Assembly: GCA_012840385.1 (NCBI GenBank)
Contig: DULK01000085.1
Location: forward strand, 1 to 45,941
Source of the DNA: Syntrophomonadaceae bacterium
GTDB taxonomy: Bacteria > Bacillota > DSM-12270 > Thermacetogeniales > Thermacetogeniaceae
DNA length: 45,941 bases
Reading direction: 5' to 3'
The translations under genes were made by a program, and so were the position numbers. The notes beneath the pieces are model-generated. The model made no database searches. It was not told the origin of the DNA and saw only the letters and a program-made list of their open reading frames with translations. Shown piece by piece: positions 9,705 to 35,894 of the stretch. How positions within the stretch are numbered: the first letter of the stretch is position 1; each line of letters begins with the position of its first letter.

Positions 9705-9754
9705 TAGATAAAGCCATACATCCCACCCCCTATCGCGCGTAGGGTACCGGTGTG

Positions 9755-9968
9755 GAGGAGCAGGCAGGTCTCCTGGCTCGGGTTCCTCGCCCCTCCTGCT
9801 CCTTCCCACCCGGCACTCAACATTAGCTGAATCCAGCCCACTGGTAATTACGCTTTATTGAGTGCCGGGCAGTGGCACCTGCAGGAGGGCTCCCCCTCAC
9901 AGTGGCGGGACCGCGCCTTTTTCCGGCACTCCACCCAGGATGCCGCCCCTCTCGACACCAGGCAACAC
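9755..9968 (-). promoter_or_regulatory. Cobalamin riboswitch upstream of the hemC-cbi operon
   Basis: On the minus strand the B12 box AGCCAGGAGACCTGCCT is at 9762-9778, and the conserved core GGTCCCGCCACTGTGA lies at about 9896-9911. These are the two hallmark blocks of the AdoCbl riboswitch, in the right order. A 12-bp stem, CCCGGCACTCAA with TTGAGTGCCGGG (9809-9820 and 9858-9869), forms a large peripheral arm between core and B12 box. A second copy of the same motif pairs 9923-9931 with 10010-10018, which may extend the aptamer 5' end to about 10045, where GGGAAGTCCGG resembles the usual 5' strand. The following terminator suggests transcriptional control. Confidence 0.9.
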
Positions 9969-10228
9969 TCCCTGACCCACGTCAAGACAGGACCGGCTGC
10001 TCCTGCCTTGAGTGCCGGATCCGGACTTCCCTTTTCAGCCCTTTCCGGGCCACCTGCCCCTTGATCATTATGCTGTTAAACCACTAAACTTATTTATTCT
10101 TCCCTTCGAGCCATTATCCTTCTTAACCTGAAAAATTATTCTTCTCGCCGCCAAACCTCCTATTCCCAGAAGCCGGCCCCAAGGTGCTTCTAACGGGTGA
10201 CAACCCTGCCTGACCCACCTTTGAAGAG

Positions 10229-14926: not shown

Positions 14927-15777
14927 GGTTCCACCTCCAGGTCGATGTTGTCGATCAGGCGGGTTTTCCCCACGTAAACCGCGGCGGCCAGAAGCACAGG
15001 CCCCTCCAGGACCCCCAGTTCCGACAGGTCCCTCCCGCTGCAGACCTCCACATAGTCAACCCTGACACCGGGAGAACGGTTCAGAGCCTCCAGGATCCTC
15101 TCCCGCACCTTCCGGGGGTCGCGCTCTCCCCTTGTGATCAGTTCCCGCCCCGCCGCCAGGGCACGGGGCAGGGCCAGGGCCTGCCGCCGCTCCTCGGGGC
15201 TGAGGTAGGTATTCCGGGAACTCATGGCCAGGCCGTCCGCCTCCCGCACGATGGGGCAGGTGACGATTTCCAGGGGGAGGTTCAGGTCTGCCACCATCTT
15301 CCGGATGACTACGGCCTGCTGGGCGTCCTTCTGGCCGAAGTAGGCCCGGTGGGGCTGAACGATGTTAAAGAGCTTCAGGACCACGGTGGTCACCCCTCGG
15401 AAGTGCCCTGGCCGCGACCTGGCGCACATCTTCTCCGTTACTTCCCCCAGCACCTCCACGTAGGTGTTGTACCCCTGCGGGTACATCTCCTCCCCGGCCG
15501 GGGCAAAGACGTAATCAACTCCTGCCGATTCGGCCAGCCTGCAGTCCCGCTCCAGGTCCCGAGGGTAGGTGGCGAAGTCCTCCCGCGGGCCGAACTGCAG
15601 GGGGTTGACGAAAATGCTCATCACCACCAGGTCGTTCTCCGCCCGGGCGGCCCGGGCAAGGCTGAGGTGCCCTTCATGCAGGTAGCCCATGGTAGGCACC
15701 AGGCCGATGCTCTTCCCCTCCCGCCGTGCCTGCAGGCAGATCCCCTGCATTTCTCTCACTTTTTTAATGATTTCCAT
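14908..15777 (-). CDS. panC: Pantothenate synthetase PanC
   Basis: A 289-residue ATP-dependent ligase of pantoate and beta-alanine, nucleotidyltransferase superfamily. The HIGH-type signature is HEGH at 34-37 in [22 protein letters not shown] and the [13 protein letters not shown] region (KMSKS equivalent) are present in the usual order. It is encoded in the pan operon 24 bases after panB, and its product meets the beta-alanine from PanD encoded next. Confidence 0.96.
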
Positions 15778-30657: not shown

Positions 30658-31080
30658 TTATTCTTTGACGATCAGCACCGGGCAGTGGGCAAGCCTTGCC
30701 GCCTCAGTAGAAACGCTCCCCAGCAGGTAACGCTTGATCCCGCTCAGCCCCCGGGCACCGAGCACCAGCAAATCGTAACCCTCTTTTTCCGCAAGGCGCG
30801 TCAGGGCATCCGCCGGGTGCCCCACTAAAACCGCCGTGTTCAAGTTCACGCCTTCCTTACCGGCCAACTCCCTCGCCTCCTCGAAGCCCTTTTCAAAAAA
30901 CTTTTTCGCATCTTCAATACTGCCGTCGATTTCATCCCTGGTACCGGCGAAATCGGGCAGGCGGGCCACTGAAGCGGCGGTAAGCTCCGCCCCGTACTTC
31001 TTCGTAAGATCCAATGCCACTATTAAAGCCTTCTTGGCATTTTCGGAACCGTCGTAGCCTACCAGGATTTTCTTAAACAT
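30658..31080 (-). CDS. Universal stress protein UspA family
   Basis: A 140-residue single-domain Usp. KILVGYDGSENAKKAL opens the fold (5-19), and the ATP-binding C-terminal motif is GARGLSGIKRYLLGSVS followed by CPVLIV. Usp proteins bind ATP or serve stress adaptation. It begins 2 bases after the antiporter gene, so the pair is co-transcribed and shares the fluoride-type riboswitch; UspA genes are a known, if less common, part of fluoride regulons. Confidence 0.93.
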   Translation of the reverse strand: MFKKILVGYDGSENAKKALIVALDLTKKYGAELTAASVARLPDFAGTRDEIDGSIEDAKKFFEKGFEEARELAGKEGVNLNTAVLVGHPADALTRLAEKEGYDLLVLGARGLSGIKRYLLGSVSTEAARLAHCPVLIVKE

Positions 31081-31082
31081 TA

Positions 31083-32255
31083 TTAATTACCTCCCTCTTC
31101 AGGTGTGACGCCGGAACTTGCTTCCTGAACAAGTCCTTGCTCCATTTTGGGCATGAAGAATGCCTGGGCAATCAAGGTCGGGACCACCGCGCTCAAGACC
31201 ACCACGGTTACCAGGATGGTGTACTGGGTCTGGTTGATGTATCCGTGGGTAAGGCCAAATAGAGCAGAGATTGATCCGAAGGTGAGCCCCGTGGACATCA
31301 GCAGGGTGGTGTACATACCTTCTCTGGGAACAAAGCGAAAAATCCTCGTGGCCGGCCAGACCCCGATGAATTTGGCCACCACCTTTACGAAGAGCAGCAC
31401 TGCAATCAGCCCCGCCCCTGCGACAATAGCCTTAAGCGAGATAAACAGTCCTGCCTTCAAGAAAAAGAATGGTGTCAACAGGGAAAAGGCCATTGAGCGC
31501 ATCCTGGAGGTAAGGGTCTTTTCTTCGAGGAAAAAACCCGCAACCGCCAGTCCCAGCACGTACGCCGGAAGTACCGCTTCACTGTTGGCCATGGCTGCCA
31601 AACCGCCTAATCCAAATAGCAGGAACAAGAAGTACTTGATCTCCAGCTGGCTCACCCGGCCGCCGTATCTCCCGACGAACCAGCGGCTGAAACGCGGCGC
31701 CAGAGCTATCACCACCGCAGCCACTACAACAAAGAGGAGCATCCATTTGTTAAAGCTCGCAAATATAATTCCCAGGGCCAGGACCGTGCCCAAATCGGTG
31801 ACGAAACAGGCGGCCAGGATGATCTTCCCCAGTTCCGTCTGGTTCAAGCCGGTCTCCACCATAACCGCATAGACGACCGCCACGGAAGTTGTGGAAAGGG
31901 CGATTCCGGCGATTTCCGATGCCTGGAGCGTCCAGCCGGATACGTAGTAGGAGTAGGCAAAAGCACCCAGAAACGGGAAAAGAAACGAGACTACGCCGAT
32001 GGAAATGCTCTCTTTAAACTTGGTTCGCAGGATGACCGGATCAACCTCGCTACCGGCCAGGAAGGTCAGCAATATGCTTCCTACACCGGCGAGAAAGTTG
32101 ACCCAGGTATTTGTATGCAGTCCCAAAAAGTTACCTGCTATGACACCAACAGCTATTTCGATCAGGGAGACGGATATGCCCGTCCAACCGGCGATCAGCC
32201 CGGCGGCAAGGGCCAAACCCACCCATTCCGCAGCTATCAGCCACATGTTCTCCAT
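31083..32255 (-). CDS. CPA2-type cation/proton antiporter
   Basis: A 390-residue integral membrane protein with about 12 hydrophobic segments. It resembles the Kef/NapA type: GLHTNTWVNFLAGVGSILLTFLAGSEVDP carries the substrate-path acidic residue, ALSTTSVAVVYAVMVETG, and CFVTDLGTVLAL with the conserved ion-binding Asp. No C-terminal RCK domain. The start is the ATG at 32255 (GGAAGGAGAG just upstream), not the earlier open frame. Antiporters of this group occur downstream of fluoride riboswitches, which would fit a fluoride/proton or cation-linked toxicity role. Confidence 0.9.
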   Translation of the reverse strand: MENMWLIAAEWVGLALAAGLIAGWTGISVSLIEIAVGVIAGNFLGLHTNTWVNFLAGVGSILLTFLAGSEVDPVILRTKFKESISIGVVSFLFPFLGAFAYSYYVSGWTLQASEIAGIALSTTSVAVVYAVMVETGLNQTELGKIILAACFVTDLGTVLALGIIFASFNKWMLLFVVVAAVVIALAPRFSRWFVGRYGGRVSQLEIKYFLFLLFGLGGLAAMANSEAVLPAYVLGLAVAGFFLEEKTLTSRMRSMAFSLLTPFFFLKAGLFISLKAIVAGAGLIAVLLFVKVVAKFIGVWPATRIFRFVPREGMYTTLLMSTGLTFGSISALFGLTHGYINQTQYTILVTVVVLSAVVPTLIAQAFFMPKMEQGLVQEASSGVTPEEGGN

Positions 32256-32303
32256 AAAGACTCTCCTTCCCAATTGAATGGCACCGGAGGGACTTGTTGA
32301 CAA

Positions 32304-32382
32304 TCAAAAAAGCCCCTACCGATGGTTGCATACATGGTAGGAGCTATTAGCTCAATTGAGCAGTAGACGAGCCCCATCGCCT
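32304..32382 (-). promoter_or_regulatory. Fluoride (crcB-type) riboswitch with terminator, upstream of antiporter-uspA
   Basis: Minus strand from 32381: GGCGATGGGGCTCGTC, CTGCTC-AATT-GAGCTAAT, then AGCTCCTACC. The order matches the fluoride aptamer: GGCG/CGUC stem, GGGGCU pairing with AGCUCC as the pseudoknot, and the small GCUC/GAGC hairpin. The joining segment is about two bases shorter than in the Thermotoga example. AGCTCCTACC (32336-32345) also pairs perfectly, with one G-U, to GGTAGGGGCT (32311-32320), followed by TTTTTT: a terminator sharing the aptamer's last strand. Fluoride binding should therefore switch the operon on. An isolated TATAAT lies upstream at 32448-32453. Confidence 0.8.
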
Positions 32383-32476
32383 TTTTACTTGAAAAAATTT
32401 GGAGATTTTAATCCAGCCAAACACCTCCTCGATCGTGATATATATAAATTATATCCGAAATTTGTAACGATTTAAA

Positions 32477-32590
32477 TCATGCATAAATCTTATTAGCAGG
32501 ACTATTGGTCACAACATCTCCTGGTTCACTATATGCCTCAAGCACCCTTGAAATTTCTTTAAATCTGAAATCAGGCTGTTTTGCGAAATA
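32477..32590 (-). pseudogene. Orphan coding-like fragment after the MFS gene
   Basis: Open frame without a start, directly after the MFS stop: QPDFRFKEISRVLEAY, then SEPGDVVTNSPANKIYA and stop. The amino-acid pattern is protein-like and unlike noise, but I do not recognise it. Probably the end of a lost gene. Confidence 0.3.
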
Positions 32591-33808
32591 TTAAGGCTTT
32601 TCGAAAGCAGTAATTTCAAGTTCCTTATTCCTCCGGGCCAGCTCCTCCCTGCCCGGGAGCAGCATCGTCAGCAGCAGGCCGATCACAGGGAAGATGATCA
32701 TCACATGAAACGCCGCCGGGAGGCCCCAGCGGTCGGCCACCCATCCCAGCAGGGTGGTGCCGACACCCCCCATCCCGATCCCGAAACCCAGGGTCAGGCC
32801 GGAGGCGAGCCCGACATTATGCGGCAGGAGTTCCTGCCCGAATACCACCGTCACCGCAAAGGTGGAAATGATGGTGAAGCCGGTCAGGGCCACTATCAAA
32901 ATCAACCACACACCCCTCAGGTGATCTAACAGGTACAAGAGGGGAACGAGCAGGGCCATGGACAGCATGATCATCGTTTTCAGCCCCCAGCGGTCGGCGA
33001 GGGGACCGCCGACCAGGGTTCCGAAGGCCCCTGCCAGTAGAAACAGCGAGACCACCGCCGCGGCGTAGGTGTGGGTGTGATGCAGGTAGCGGACGTAATA
33101 CTGGGGCAGGAAGGTGACAATCCCCAGATGCGTCCAGGAACGCATGATCACCACCAGAACCAGCAGGAAAACCGGAATAAGCGCCTTCCCGATATCTCCC
33201 GGCGTCTTTTTGGAAAAGGTGTGCCCGACGGCGGCGGCCACGGGCATCCGGTCGGCAGTTTGAGTGCGCACGATGGCCGGGAGATTGATCCAGAGAAGCA
33301 GGGCCATGATCCCGCTCAGTACCAGAAAACCCGCCGTGCCCTGCAGACCCGCCAGTTTATAAAACAACCCGGCCAGTACGGGGCCCGCCGCAAAACCGAA
33401 GTTGCCCCCCACCGAAAAGAGGGACATCCCCGAGGCCTTGCGCTCCCCGCTGGCAAACCTGGCGAACTTGGAACCCTCCGGGTGGTAGGCGGCCACCCCG
33501 AGCCCGCTGATCAGGACGGCCAGAAGCAGGGGGAGATAGCCCCCGGTGAAACCGGTGAAGGCCATCCCCAGCCCGGCAAACAGGCAGCCCAGGGGTATCA
33601 GCCAGGCGGCCCTGAAGCGGTCGCTGAAAATGCCGAAAAGCGGCTGGATCACCGAGGAACTGAGGTTAAAGGCGAGCATTGCCGCTCCCACCTGGAGCTG
33701 GCTGAGGTGGGGAAAGAAGGTCAGGATGACGGTGAGCGCCCCCTGGTTGATGTCGGTAACGGCATGTCCTGTCCCAAGCAGGCCGAGCAGCTTTTTGTTC
33801 ATCTTCAT
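32591..33808 (-). CDS. MFS transporter, Fsr (fosmidomycin resistance)-like
   Basis: A 405-residue, 12-segment major facilitator. GHAVTDINQGALTVILTFF near the start and AAYHPEGSKFA in the middle of the N-half are typical of the Fsr branch; QPLFGIFSDRF and GGPLADRWGLK are the usual loop motifs. Such proteins export small molecules including fosmidomycin; the natural substrate is unknown. The start is set at the ATG at 33808, eight bases after AAGGAG; the frame opens seven codons earlier. It stands alone, between the fluoride-controlled operon and hypB. Confidence 0.85.
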   Translation of the reverse strand: MKMNKKLLGLLGTGHAVTDINQGALTVILTFFPHLSQLQVGAAMLAFNLSSSVIQPLFGIFSDRFRAAWLIPLGCLFAGLGMAFTGFTGGYLPLLLAVLISGLGVAAYHPEGSKFARFASGERKASGMSLFSVGGNFGFAAGPVLAGLFYKLAGLQGTAGFLVLSGIMALLLWINLPAIVRTQTADRMPVAAAVGHTFSKKTPGDIGKALIPVFLLVLVVIMRSWTHLGIVTFLPQYYVRYLHHTHTYAAAVVSLFLLAGAFGTLVGGPLADRWGLKTMIMLSMALLVPLLYLLDHLRGVWLILIVALTGFTIISTFAVTVVFGQELLPHNVGLASGLTLGFGIGMGGVGTTLLGWVADRWGLPAAFHVMIIFPVIGLLLTMLLPGREELARRNKELEITAFEKP

Positions 33809-33916
33809 CGCGGTGACTCCTTGTTTCAATTGATAGATATCTTGGTCAACAGCGCCTGAACGCCATATTCGAGGAAATAATAACAGGGAACCCGGCGAAA
33901 TTTAAGGGAATAAGCA

Positions 33917-34647: not shown

Positions 34648-34992
34648 TTAATCCCCTTCGTAAAAATCGATGTAAAGCTCCCGGCCCCCGACTATTTTGA
34701 CATTGGGGCCGGAGCAGGACGGACAGAGGAATTCATAGTTCGGGGCTTCGTAGAGATGCCCGCAGTCTTTGCACTCGCAGCGCACCGGCTCCTCCCTGAT
34801 CTCCAGAACTGCGTCCTTGATGAGTTCATCCTCTTTCTGCAGAACCTCGAAGGCAAACTGCAGGGCGTCCGGCACCGCCATGGTCATTTTACCGACTACC
34901 AGTAAAACCCTGGTTATCTTTTTTATATCGTTTTCCGCAGCGCTGGCGCGGAGCTGCTTGACAACGCTTTCCATAAGAGAAAGCTCGTGCAT
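34648..34992 (-). CDS. hypA: Hydrogenase maturation nickel chaperone HypA
   Basis: A 114-residue HypA. The N-terminal MHELSLMESVV provides the Ni ligand His2. The zinc site is CECKDC ... CPSC (about 68-71 and 85-88). The start is placed at the ATG at 34992 because the MHE N-terminus is required for Ni binding; six extra in-frame codons exist upstream. It partners HypB and is separated from the hydrogenase operon only by repeat R3. Confidence 0.95.
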   Translation of the reverse strand: MHELSLMESVVKQLRASAAENDIKKITRVLLVVGKMTMAVPDALQFAFEVLQKEDELIKDAVLEIREEPVRCECKDCGHLYEAPNYEFLCPSCSGPNVKIVGGRELYIDFYEGD

Positions 34993-35091
34993 GTTCTTCC
35001 CGCCGTTCATCTTTTATCGCCTGTTTTGCCAGGCCTTATAATACAAGTCCATTTTAAGCCATGATTGTGCAGTTAGCAAGCGCAGGATGCC

Positions 35092-35340
35092 GTTTATCCT
35101 TGCGCTTGCTCCCGGACTCCGGTTGAACTCGCCCTACGACTCGTCGCAGACGGCAGCCGACCGCCTCCTACGCTGCATCCATGCATCGGAGTCGGCTACT
35201 TCGGCATCCATGCCTCAGTTCGGCTGCCGTTAGCTGCTCCTTCGTCAAGGGCGAGATAACAACCTCCGTAGGTCGCTGCGCCTGCAAGGATAAACAACTA
35301 TATATTGTTATTCTTCTGATGATACTGCCGGAGACGGTAA
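35092..35340. repeat. Intergenic foldable repeat, copy R3 (full length)
   Basis: Left end GTTTATCCTTGCGCTTGCTC (35092-35111), right end CTGCAAGGATAAAC near 35282-35295, then a T-rich tail with the weak hairpin TACTGCCGGAGACGGTA. Internal inverted halves GGCAGCCGA and TCGGCTGCC are present. The about 75 bases before the right end match R1 and R4; the core with two CATCCATG blocks is unique. It separates hypA from the hydrogenase operon and holds no credible gene. Confidence 0.8.
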
Positions 35341-35390: not shown

Positions 35391-35422
35391 GAAAAGGAGG
35401 AGCCACGGTTCGGACTCCTCCT
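35391..35422 (-). terminator. Terminator of the hydrogenase operon
   Basis: Minus strand: AGGAGGAG pairs with CTCCTCCT around about 12 bases, then TTTTC. It starts at the stop codon of the maturation protease gene. Confidence 0.7.
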
Positions 35423-35894
35423 ATCCGGCCGGCAGCATTTTTTTGATCTCCTCCAGGATGCGGGCTCTCGCCCGGGGAACTGCGGCCGCCACTGCGGGGG
35501 AGAGTTCCTCCACAAACGCCTCTTCGGTCACAATCTCTACCCCGACGACCAACAACCGCTCCGGCAGTTTACCCAGCTTCTTCCCCAACTCCACCGCGTC
35601 TATGACATTGATCCCGTGGGAGGAGAGGGGCATCACCTCCCGCGGGGGAAGCAGGGATGTGTCGAAGCAGTGAACCGTACCCGGAGGGGCACCGCTCATC
35701 ACCGCATCGACCAGGATCACCCGCTCGACACCATCCCAGAGATCAAGAAGATTGAGGCCGGGACATCCGGCCTCAATCACCTTCACCCCATCGGGGAGTT
35801 TGCACTCCTTGAGAGACCTGACAACATGCAGGCCCACTCCGTCATCCGCCGCCAGCAGGTTCCCGCAGCCGATGACGAGAACTTCCGGTTTCAT
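35421..35894 (-). CDS. [NiFe] hydrogenase maturation endopeptidase (HycI/HybD family)
   Basis: A 157-residue protease. GCGNLLAADDGVGLHVV at about 9-25 supplies the first Ni-sensing acidic residue, and ILVDAVMSGAPPG carries the second. SSHGINVIDAVELGK is the third family block. It removes the C-terminal peptide of the large subunit once nickel is in place. It is encoded directly after the large subunit (no gap), which strongly implies that this is its substrate. Confidence 0.94.
   Translation of the reverse strand: MKPEVLVIGCGNLLAADDGVGLHVVRSLKECKLPDGVKVIEAGCPGLNLLDLWDGVERVILVDAVMSGAPPGTVHCFDTSLLPPREVMPLSSHGINVIDAVELGKKLGKLPERLLVVGVEIVTEEAFVEELSPAVAAAVPRARARILEEIKKMLPAG

Follow-up and report, generated by a model that had tools for sequence, protein, structure and literature searches.

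Our analysis of the window, the whole 45.9-kb stretch of DNA under study, argued for a two-gene fluoride-stress operon that is probably controlled by a transcriptional fluoride ON-riboswitch, with a NapA-like antiporter most likely acting as a Na+/H+ exchanger that would offset the disturbance caused by HF. The proposal is based on the following: (i) the sequence, (ii) compensatory pairing in the leader, (iii) conservation of the operon, (iv) the predicted fold of the antiporter, and (v) the absence of Fluc and CLC-F-like matches from the genome.

Table 1. Features of the leader and of the two genes behind it
Feature	Positions	Strand	Remarks
Candidate sigma-70-type promoter, TTTAAA, 17 nt, TATAAT	32448..32476	(-)	10/12 consensus matches; weak
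Fluoride riboswitch aptamer (RF01734)	32331..32390	(-)	38.5 bits, gathering 34; P1 4/4, pseudoknot 6/6, P2 4 bp
Intrinsic terminator hairpin, then TTTTTT	32311..32345	(-)	10/10 arm pairing; 5' arm overlaps pseudoknot 3' strand
CPA2 (NapA-like) cation/proton antiporter, 390 aa	31083..32255	(-)	ATG at 32255; PF00999 129 bits
UspA universal stress protein, 140 aa	30658..31080	(-)	PF00582 121 bits; start 2 nt past antiporter stop codon

The leader and its two genes

A sequence-only reading of this DNA had recognized a fluoride-type aptamer ahead of the genes for a CPA2 antiporter and a UspA protein, and these assignments were borne out by the covariance score, which lies above the threshold, by the presence of P1, P2, and the pseudoknot, and by the Pfam matches of both genes (Table 1). 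In the scan of the window with all of Rfam, the full fluoride model (positions 1 to 64) was aligned to the leader with an E value of 2.9e-07, and this match, of modest score for RF01734, is the only one in the 2.70-Mb, 98.8%-complete genome. The helices P1 (GGCG/CGUC) and P2 (GCUC/GAGC) and the 6-bp pseudoknot (GGGGCU/AGCUCC) are all present. Judged against the core positions that we take to be those of the Thermotoga petrophila structure (A6, U7, G8, U38, A40, U41, and U48), the conserved core is kept: AUG opens the loop, the tail reads U-A-A-U, and a U follows CUCC. The joining segment J1/2, already described as slightly short, has three model positions deleted relative to the Rfam consensus. 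The leader (32281-32400) is identical to that of a sister species of the same genus (G001) at 119 of 120 positions, compared with about 159 of 200 in the DNA upstream (32401-32600). A chance match was ruled out by the score, the pairing, the terminator, and the conservation across species and genera.

The last strand of the aptamer is shared with a terminator, as had been proposed for an ON-switch: the 5' arm of a 10-bp hairpin is the 3' strand of the pseudoknot, AGCUCCUACC pairing at all 10 positions with GGUAGGGGCU, and the T run comes next. The segment 32304-32350 folds at -18.3 kcal/mol (z = -3.8), a value equalled in none of 200 shuffles. The hairpin is absent from a consensus terminator scan because its loop exceeds the limit of 8 set in that scan, and the terminator was judged instead by arm pairing and folding. 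Such a transcription ON-switch anatomy has been predicted for the fluoride riboswitch class in general (Weinberg et al. 2010, PMC2864571). The promoter candidate is graded weak because four promoter-like sites were found in the region, compared with 2.1 expected in shuffles.

We judge the leader very likely to be a working fluoride ON switch, for which fluoride binding and the direction of switching in the cell are inferred. In the model that we propose, the nascent AGCUCCUACC strand would pair with GGUAGGGGCU in the absence of fluoride, and the terminator would form ahead of the genes. Upon binding of Mg2+-fluoride, the same strand would be held in the pseudoknot of the aptamer, the terminator would be blocked, and RNA polymerase would continue into the antiporter and UspA genes. 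The antiporter would then offset the proton and cation disturbance resulting from HF entry and dissociation, with UspA as a general stress partner.

The operon is followed by tRNA genes, and the gene ahead of the leader encodes an MFS transporter (32591-33829). In the sister species G001 (L025/L065), the riboswitch and UspA are intact, and a single base disrupts the reading frame of the antiporter, which reflects either a pseudogene or a mistake in the assembly. Two other RNA families were matched on the minus strand of the window: the TwoAYGGAY orphan RNA (RF01731) at 35114-35271 (46.3 bits, cut-off 43), flanked by minus-strand genes which, by sequence reading, are hydrogenase maturation protease-like (35421-35894) and HypA-like (34648-35010), and a Cobalamin riboswitch (RF00174) at 9746-10072 (71.6 bits).

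A riboswitch-linked antiporter clade

When 398 genomes of the phylum were searched at the protein level, homologues of the antiporter (E ≤ 1e-60) turned up in 30 genomes from 23 genera. All 30 carriers have a fluoride riboswitch, compared with 125 of the 368 other genomes (Fisher 8e-14, the genomes of these 23 genera not being independent). The linkage is also positional: of the 32 antiporter copies, 26 have a riboswitch on the same strand no more than 500 nt upstream, and 30 have one within 1.4 kb. The exceptions are a short second copy in G195 and the copy of G020, where the antiporter starts at contig base 110 and the riboswitch lies at the edge of another contig. Among the other PF00999 genes of the same genomes, none of 13 has a riboswitch within 500 nt or 3 kb. 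Of 30 loci, 27 have UspA behind the antiporter, two of them as partial hits. Hence, the suggestion of a fluoride response distinct to this lineage found no support in that form, and a lineage-specific oddity is ruled out, since 23 genera of the sampled phylum carry the riboswitch-antiporter arrangement, mostly with UspA.

The leaders of the clade share the same architecture. P1 is complete (4/4) in all 30 antiporter-linked aptamers and the pseudoknot (6/6) in 29, counts that are biased toward pairing as our aptamer parser takes the best-pairing placement. Changes on both sides of a pair are seen at P1 pair 3 (CG/TA), at P1 pair 1 (GC/AT/TA), and at pseudoknot pairs 4 to 6. The 5' arm of the terminator overlaps the pseudoknot strand in 30 of 30, with at least 8 of 10 pairs. 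Among the 30 aptamers examined, 26 have a parsable P2, and J1/2 is 4 nt long in 12 of these; the short joining segment is therefore ordinary for the clade. These data bear on the idea of a decaying riboswitch that has lost its fluoride response, as the low bit score and the shortened J1/2 might suggest. We consider it highly improbable, given the near identity of the leader between sister species whose upstream DNA differs by ~20%, the intact pairs, and a short J1/2 common to the clade.

Several loci of the clade are more elaborate. A tandem pair of riboswitch matches precedes a single antiporter gene at L046 (G389:C33:15557-15616 and 15688-15747). The antiporter regions L100-L119 often contain several fluoride riboswitches, with up to 10 matches in one genome (G162), and their neighbors include DUF6062, HEAT-repeat, MFS, paired MutS_V, and enolase genes, forming what we call "fluoride islands."

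Exporter absence and antiporter function

No match to CrcB/Fluc (PF02537) was found in the whole genome (98.8% complete), in agreement with the earlier statement that the operon does without crcB. The genome encodes one CLC protein, which was rejected as a CLC-F: it is devoid of the GNNLI/GMGLI signature given for CLC-F in a 2024 review (PMC11139923) and is unmatched by a CLC-F query at 1e-20. Among the 30 carriers, CrcB is found in 11 and a strong CLC-F match in none. Strong CLC-F matches occur in 29 of the 398 genomes (E ≤ 5.6e-56), the next weaker match being at 8.8e-28, a gap that we read as the border with Cl--type CLCs. Both exporter families are missing from 19 of the 30 carriers, compared with 193 of the 368 non-carriers (p = 0.26) and with 42 of the 125 riboswitch-bearing non-carriers (Fisher p = 0.0036), shared ancestry being ignored in both comparisons. 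Exporter replacement was thus rejected as a strong statistical claim, which fails against all genomes and holds against the riboswitch-bearing ones; the absence of exporters among carriers is suggestive of replacement and no proof of it. Another genome of this genus, G002 (85% complete), contains two matches to crcB, and the antiporter search at 1e-60 found nothing in it.

The antiporter belongs to CPA2 by both its family (PF00999) and its NhaA/NapA fold. It scores 106 bits against TIGR00932 (CPA2), below the curated cut-off of 238, and is a divergent member of the superfamily, outside this NCBIfam model. An AlphaFold2 model, whose input included 26 homologues, has a mean pLDDT of 86.5, and among solved structures it comes closest to NapA (5bz2, Z 41.5, rmsd 3.8, 369 aligned), which is also the closest by sequence. 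In comparison with TtNapA (4bwz/5bz2), the fold extends over nearly the whole protein and the ion-site Asp and the equivalent of K305 are kept. The two proteins differ in that they are only 22-24% identical, the DD of NapA is T-D or N-D here, the equivalents of R331 and E333 are G and T, and K267 and K291 are extra.

With regard to the CPA motif (Masrati et al. 2018), Glu is absent from position 5, position 7 is D, and position 8 is K. TM5 reads ILAACFVTDLG, and K295 aligns to K305 of NapA. Among the 26 homologues, 15 have T and 11 have N at residue 153 (motif position 6), 25 have D and 1 has N at residue 154 (position 7), and all have K at residue 295 (position 8, the TM10/11 Lys). Under the rules of Masrati et al. 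2018 (PMC6181914), exchange is expected to be electroneutral when position 6 is neutral and position 8 is K, and electroneutral transport is therefore predicted here. Moreover, the TM4 residues T-S-V agree with NapA, unlike the S-A-T of K+-selective CPA2s (same source). We favor electroneutral Na+/H+ exchange as the most likely activity of the antiporter, whose ion specificity, stoichiometry, and role in the cell are inferred.

Two lysines set the clade apart. K291 is K in 26 of 26 clade homologues and K267 is kept as lysine, with R in at least one member (L047), and neither position holds K in any of the 18 exchangers compared (12 paralogues and 6 antiporters of a second riboswitch-linked clade); R stands at 291 in two of the 12 paralogues. 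In one riboswitch-linked homologue with an intact frame (L051, in G370), the essential ion-binding D154 is replaced by N. Both features count against our main explanation, as a plain Na+/H+ exchanger needs no such lysines, and they make a non-standard substrate conceivable.

The antiporter itself could export fluoride, F- moving with or against H+, in place of Fluc/CLC-F. This would fit the lack of matches to both exporter families in this genome and in 18 other carriers, their more frequent absence from carriers than from the other riboswitch-bearing genomes, the clade-specific K267 and K291, the neutral residue at motif position 6, and the homologue without the cation-binding Asp. We nevertheless judge it unlikely: against all genomes of the phylum the lack of exporters is unremarkable, Fluc also occurs in 11 of the 30 carriers, the Asp is kept in 25 of 26 homologues, all 26 retain the TM10/11 Lys of cation exchangers, and we know of no CPA member that moves fluoride. 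Likewise improbable, in our view, is its extension to the whole clade as a third, so far undescribed fluoride-clearance transporter with a NapA fold and a lysine-rich core, which would remove F- (or HF) and stand in for Fluc/CLC-F.

A further hypothesis, which we rate as rather unlikely, is that the antiporter admits protons in return for cations moving out and thereby shrinks the membrane pH difference, so that fluoride would leave as HF and not be trapped inside. It agrees with the account in PMC11139923 of fluoride entering as HF and being trapped by the pH gradient, and of fluoride-adapted yeast resisting through intracellular acidification, independently of export. An electroneutral exchanger can run in both directions, and carriers missing both known exporters also speak for it. 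Against it, we saw no direct evidence in bacteria in the literature, and the same review puts antiporters under pH homeostasis. Offsetting the HF disturbance by Na+/H+ exchange remains our preferred explanation.

Other riboswitch-linked genes and known systems

The first genes at 30 riboswitch loci of relatives, assigned by mutual BLAST and sequence reading (with Pfam only for family representatives elsewhere), are crcB in 11, CLC-F in 2, this antiporter clade in 3, a second antiporter clade in 7, a dynamin-like GTPase in 3, and UspA, a HEAT protein, a BcrAD ATPase, and a MoxR-like ATPase in 1 each. The second antiporter clade differs by its DD motif in 6 of 7 loci (SD in L017) and is unmatched by BLASTP with this antiporter as query. 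The dynamin-like GTPase lies directly behind the riboswitch at L006 (G002), L007 (G096), and L030 (G061), and its family, identified as Dynamin_N by Pfam for one representative, is found in 11 of 21 regions (the 20 antiporter regions L100-L119 and this locus); our literature search found no report of a fluoride riboswitch together with dynamin.

The locus shares with the fluoride riboswitch class (crcB motif, RF01734) P1, P2, the pseudoknot, the conserved core, and a terminator overlapping the aptamer (PMC2864571). It differs from this class by a J1/2 three positions below the Rfam consensus and by its genes, antiporter and uspA and not crcB or eriC-F. According to PMC11139923, Na+/H+ antiporters rank second to exporters among the gene classes found behind fluoride riboswitches (Baker et al. 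2012, cited therein); as here, an exchanger-family gene lies behind the riboswitch, and the review explains these antiporters by general pH homeostasis only. An NhaP-type antiporter also lies behind a fluoride riboswitch in Clostridioides difficile (CD0656-7), where, unlike here, a CLC protein shares the operon (PMC11477304). As for uspA, it is induced ~120-fold by fluoride in the riboswitch operon ppaC-uspA-eno-gpmA-crcB-orf5249 of Enterobacter cloacae FRM, which differs in having crcB and fluoride-inhibited enzymes and no antiporter (PMC5533749). The arrangement is therefore of a known kind, antiporters and uspA having already been reported with fluoride riboswitches. The clade-specific linkage itself was not described in the literature searched, whose coverage is incomplete and does not prove absence. 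Our study sheds light on a little-studied clade that sits behind the switch almost every time, has UspA as its partner, and is frequently encoded in genomes devoid of known exporters, and that offers a clean handle on whether antiporters protect by pH, by HF release, or by moving fluoride. Compared with the systems already reported, the added interest lies in a dedicated antiporter clade, in its unusual lysine-rich core, and in the 19 of 30 carriers that do without both exporter families.
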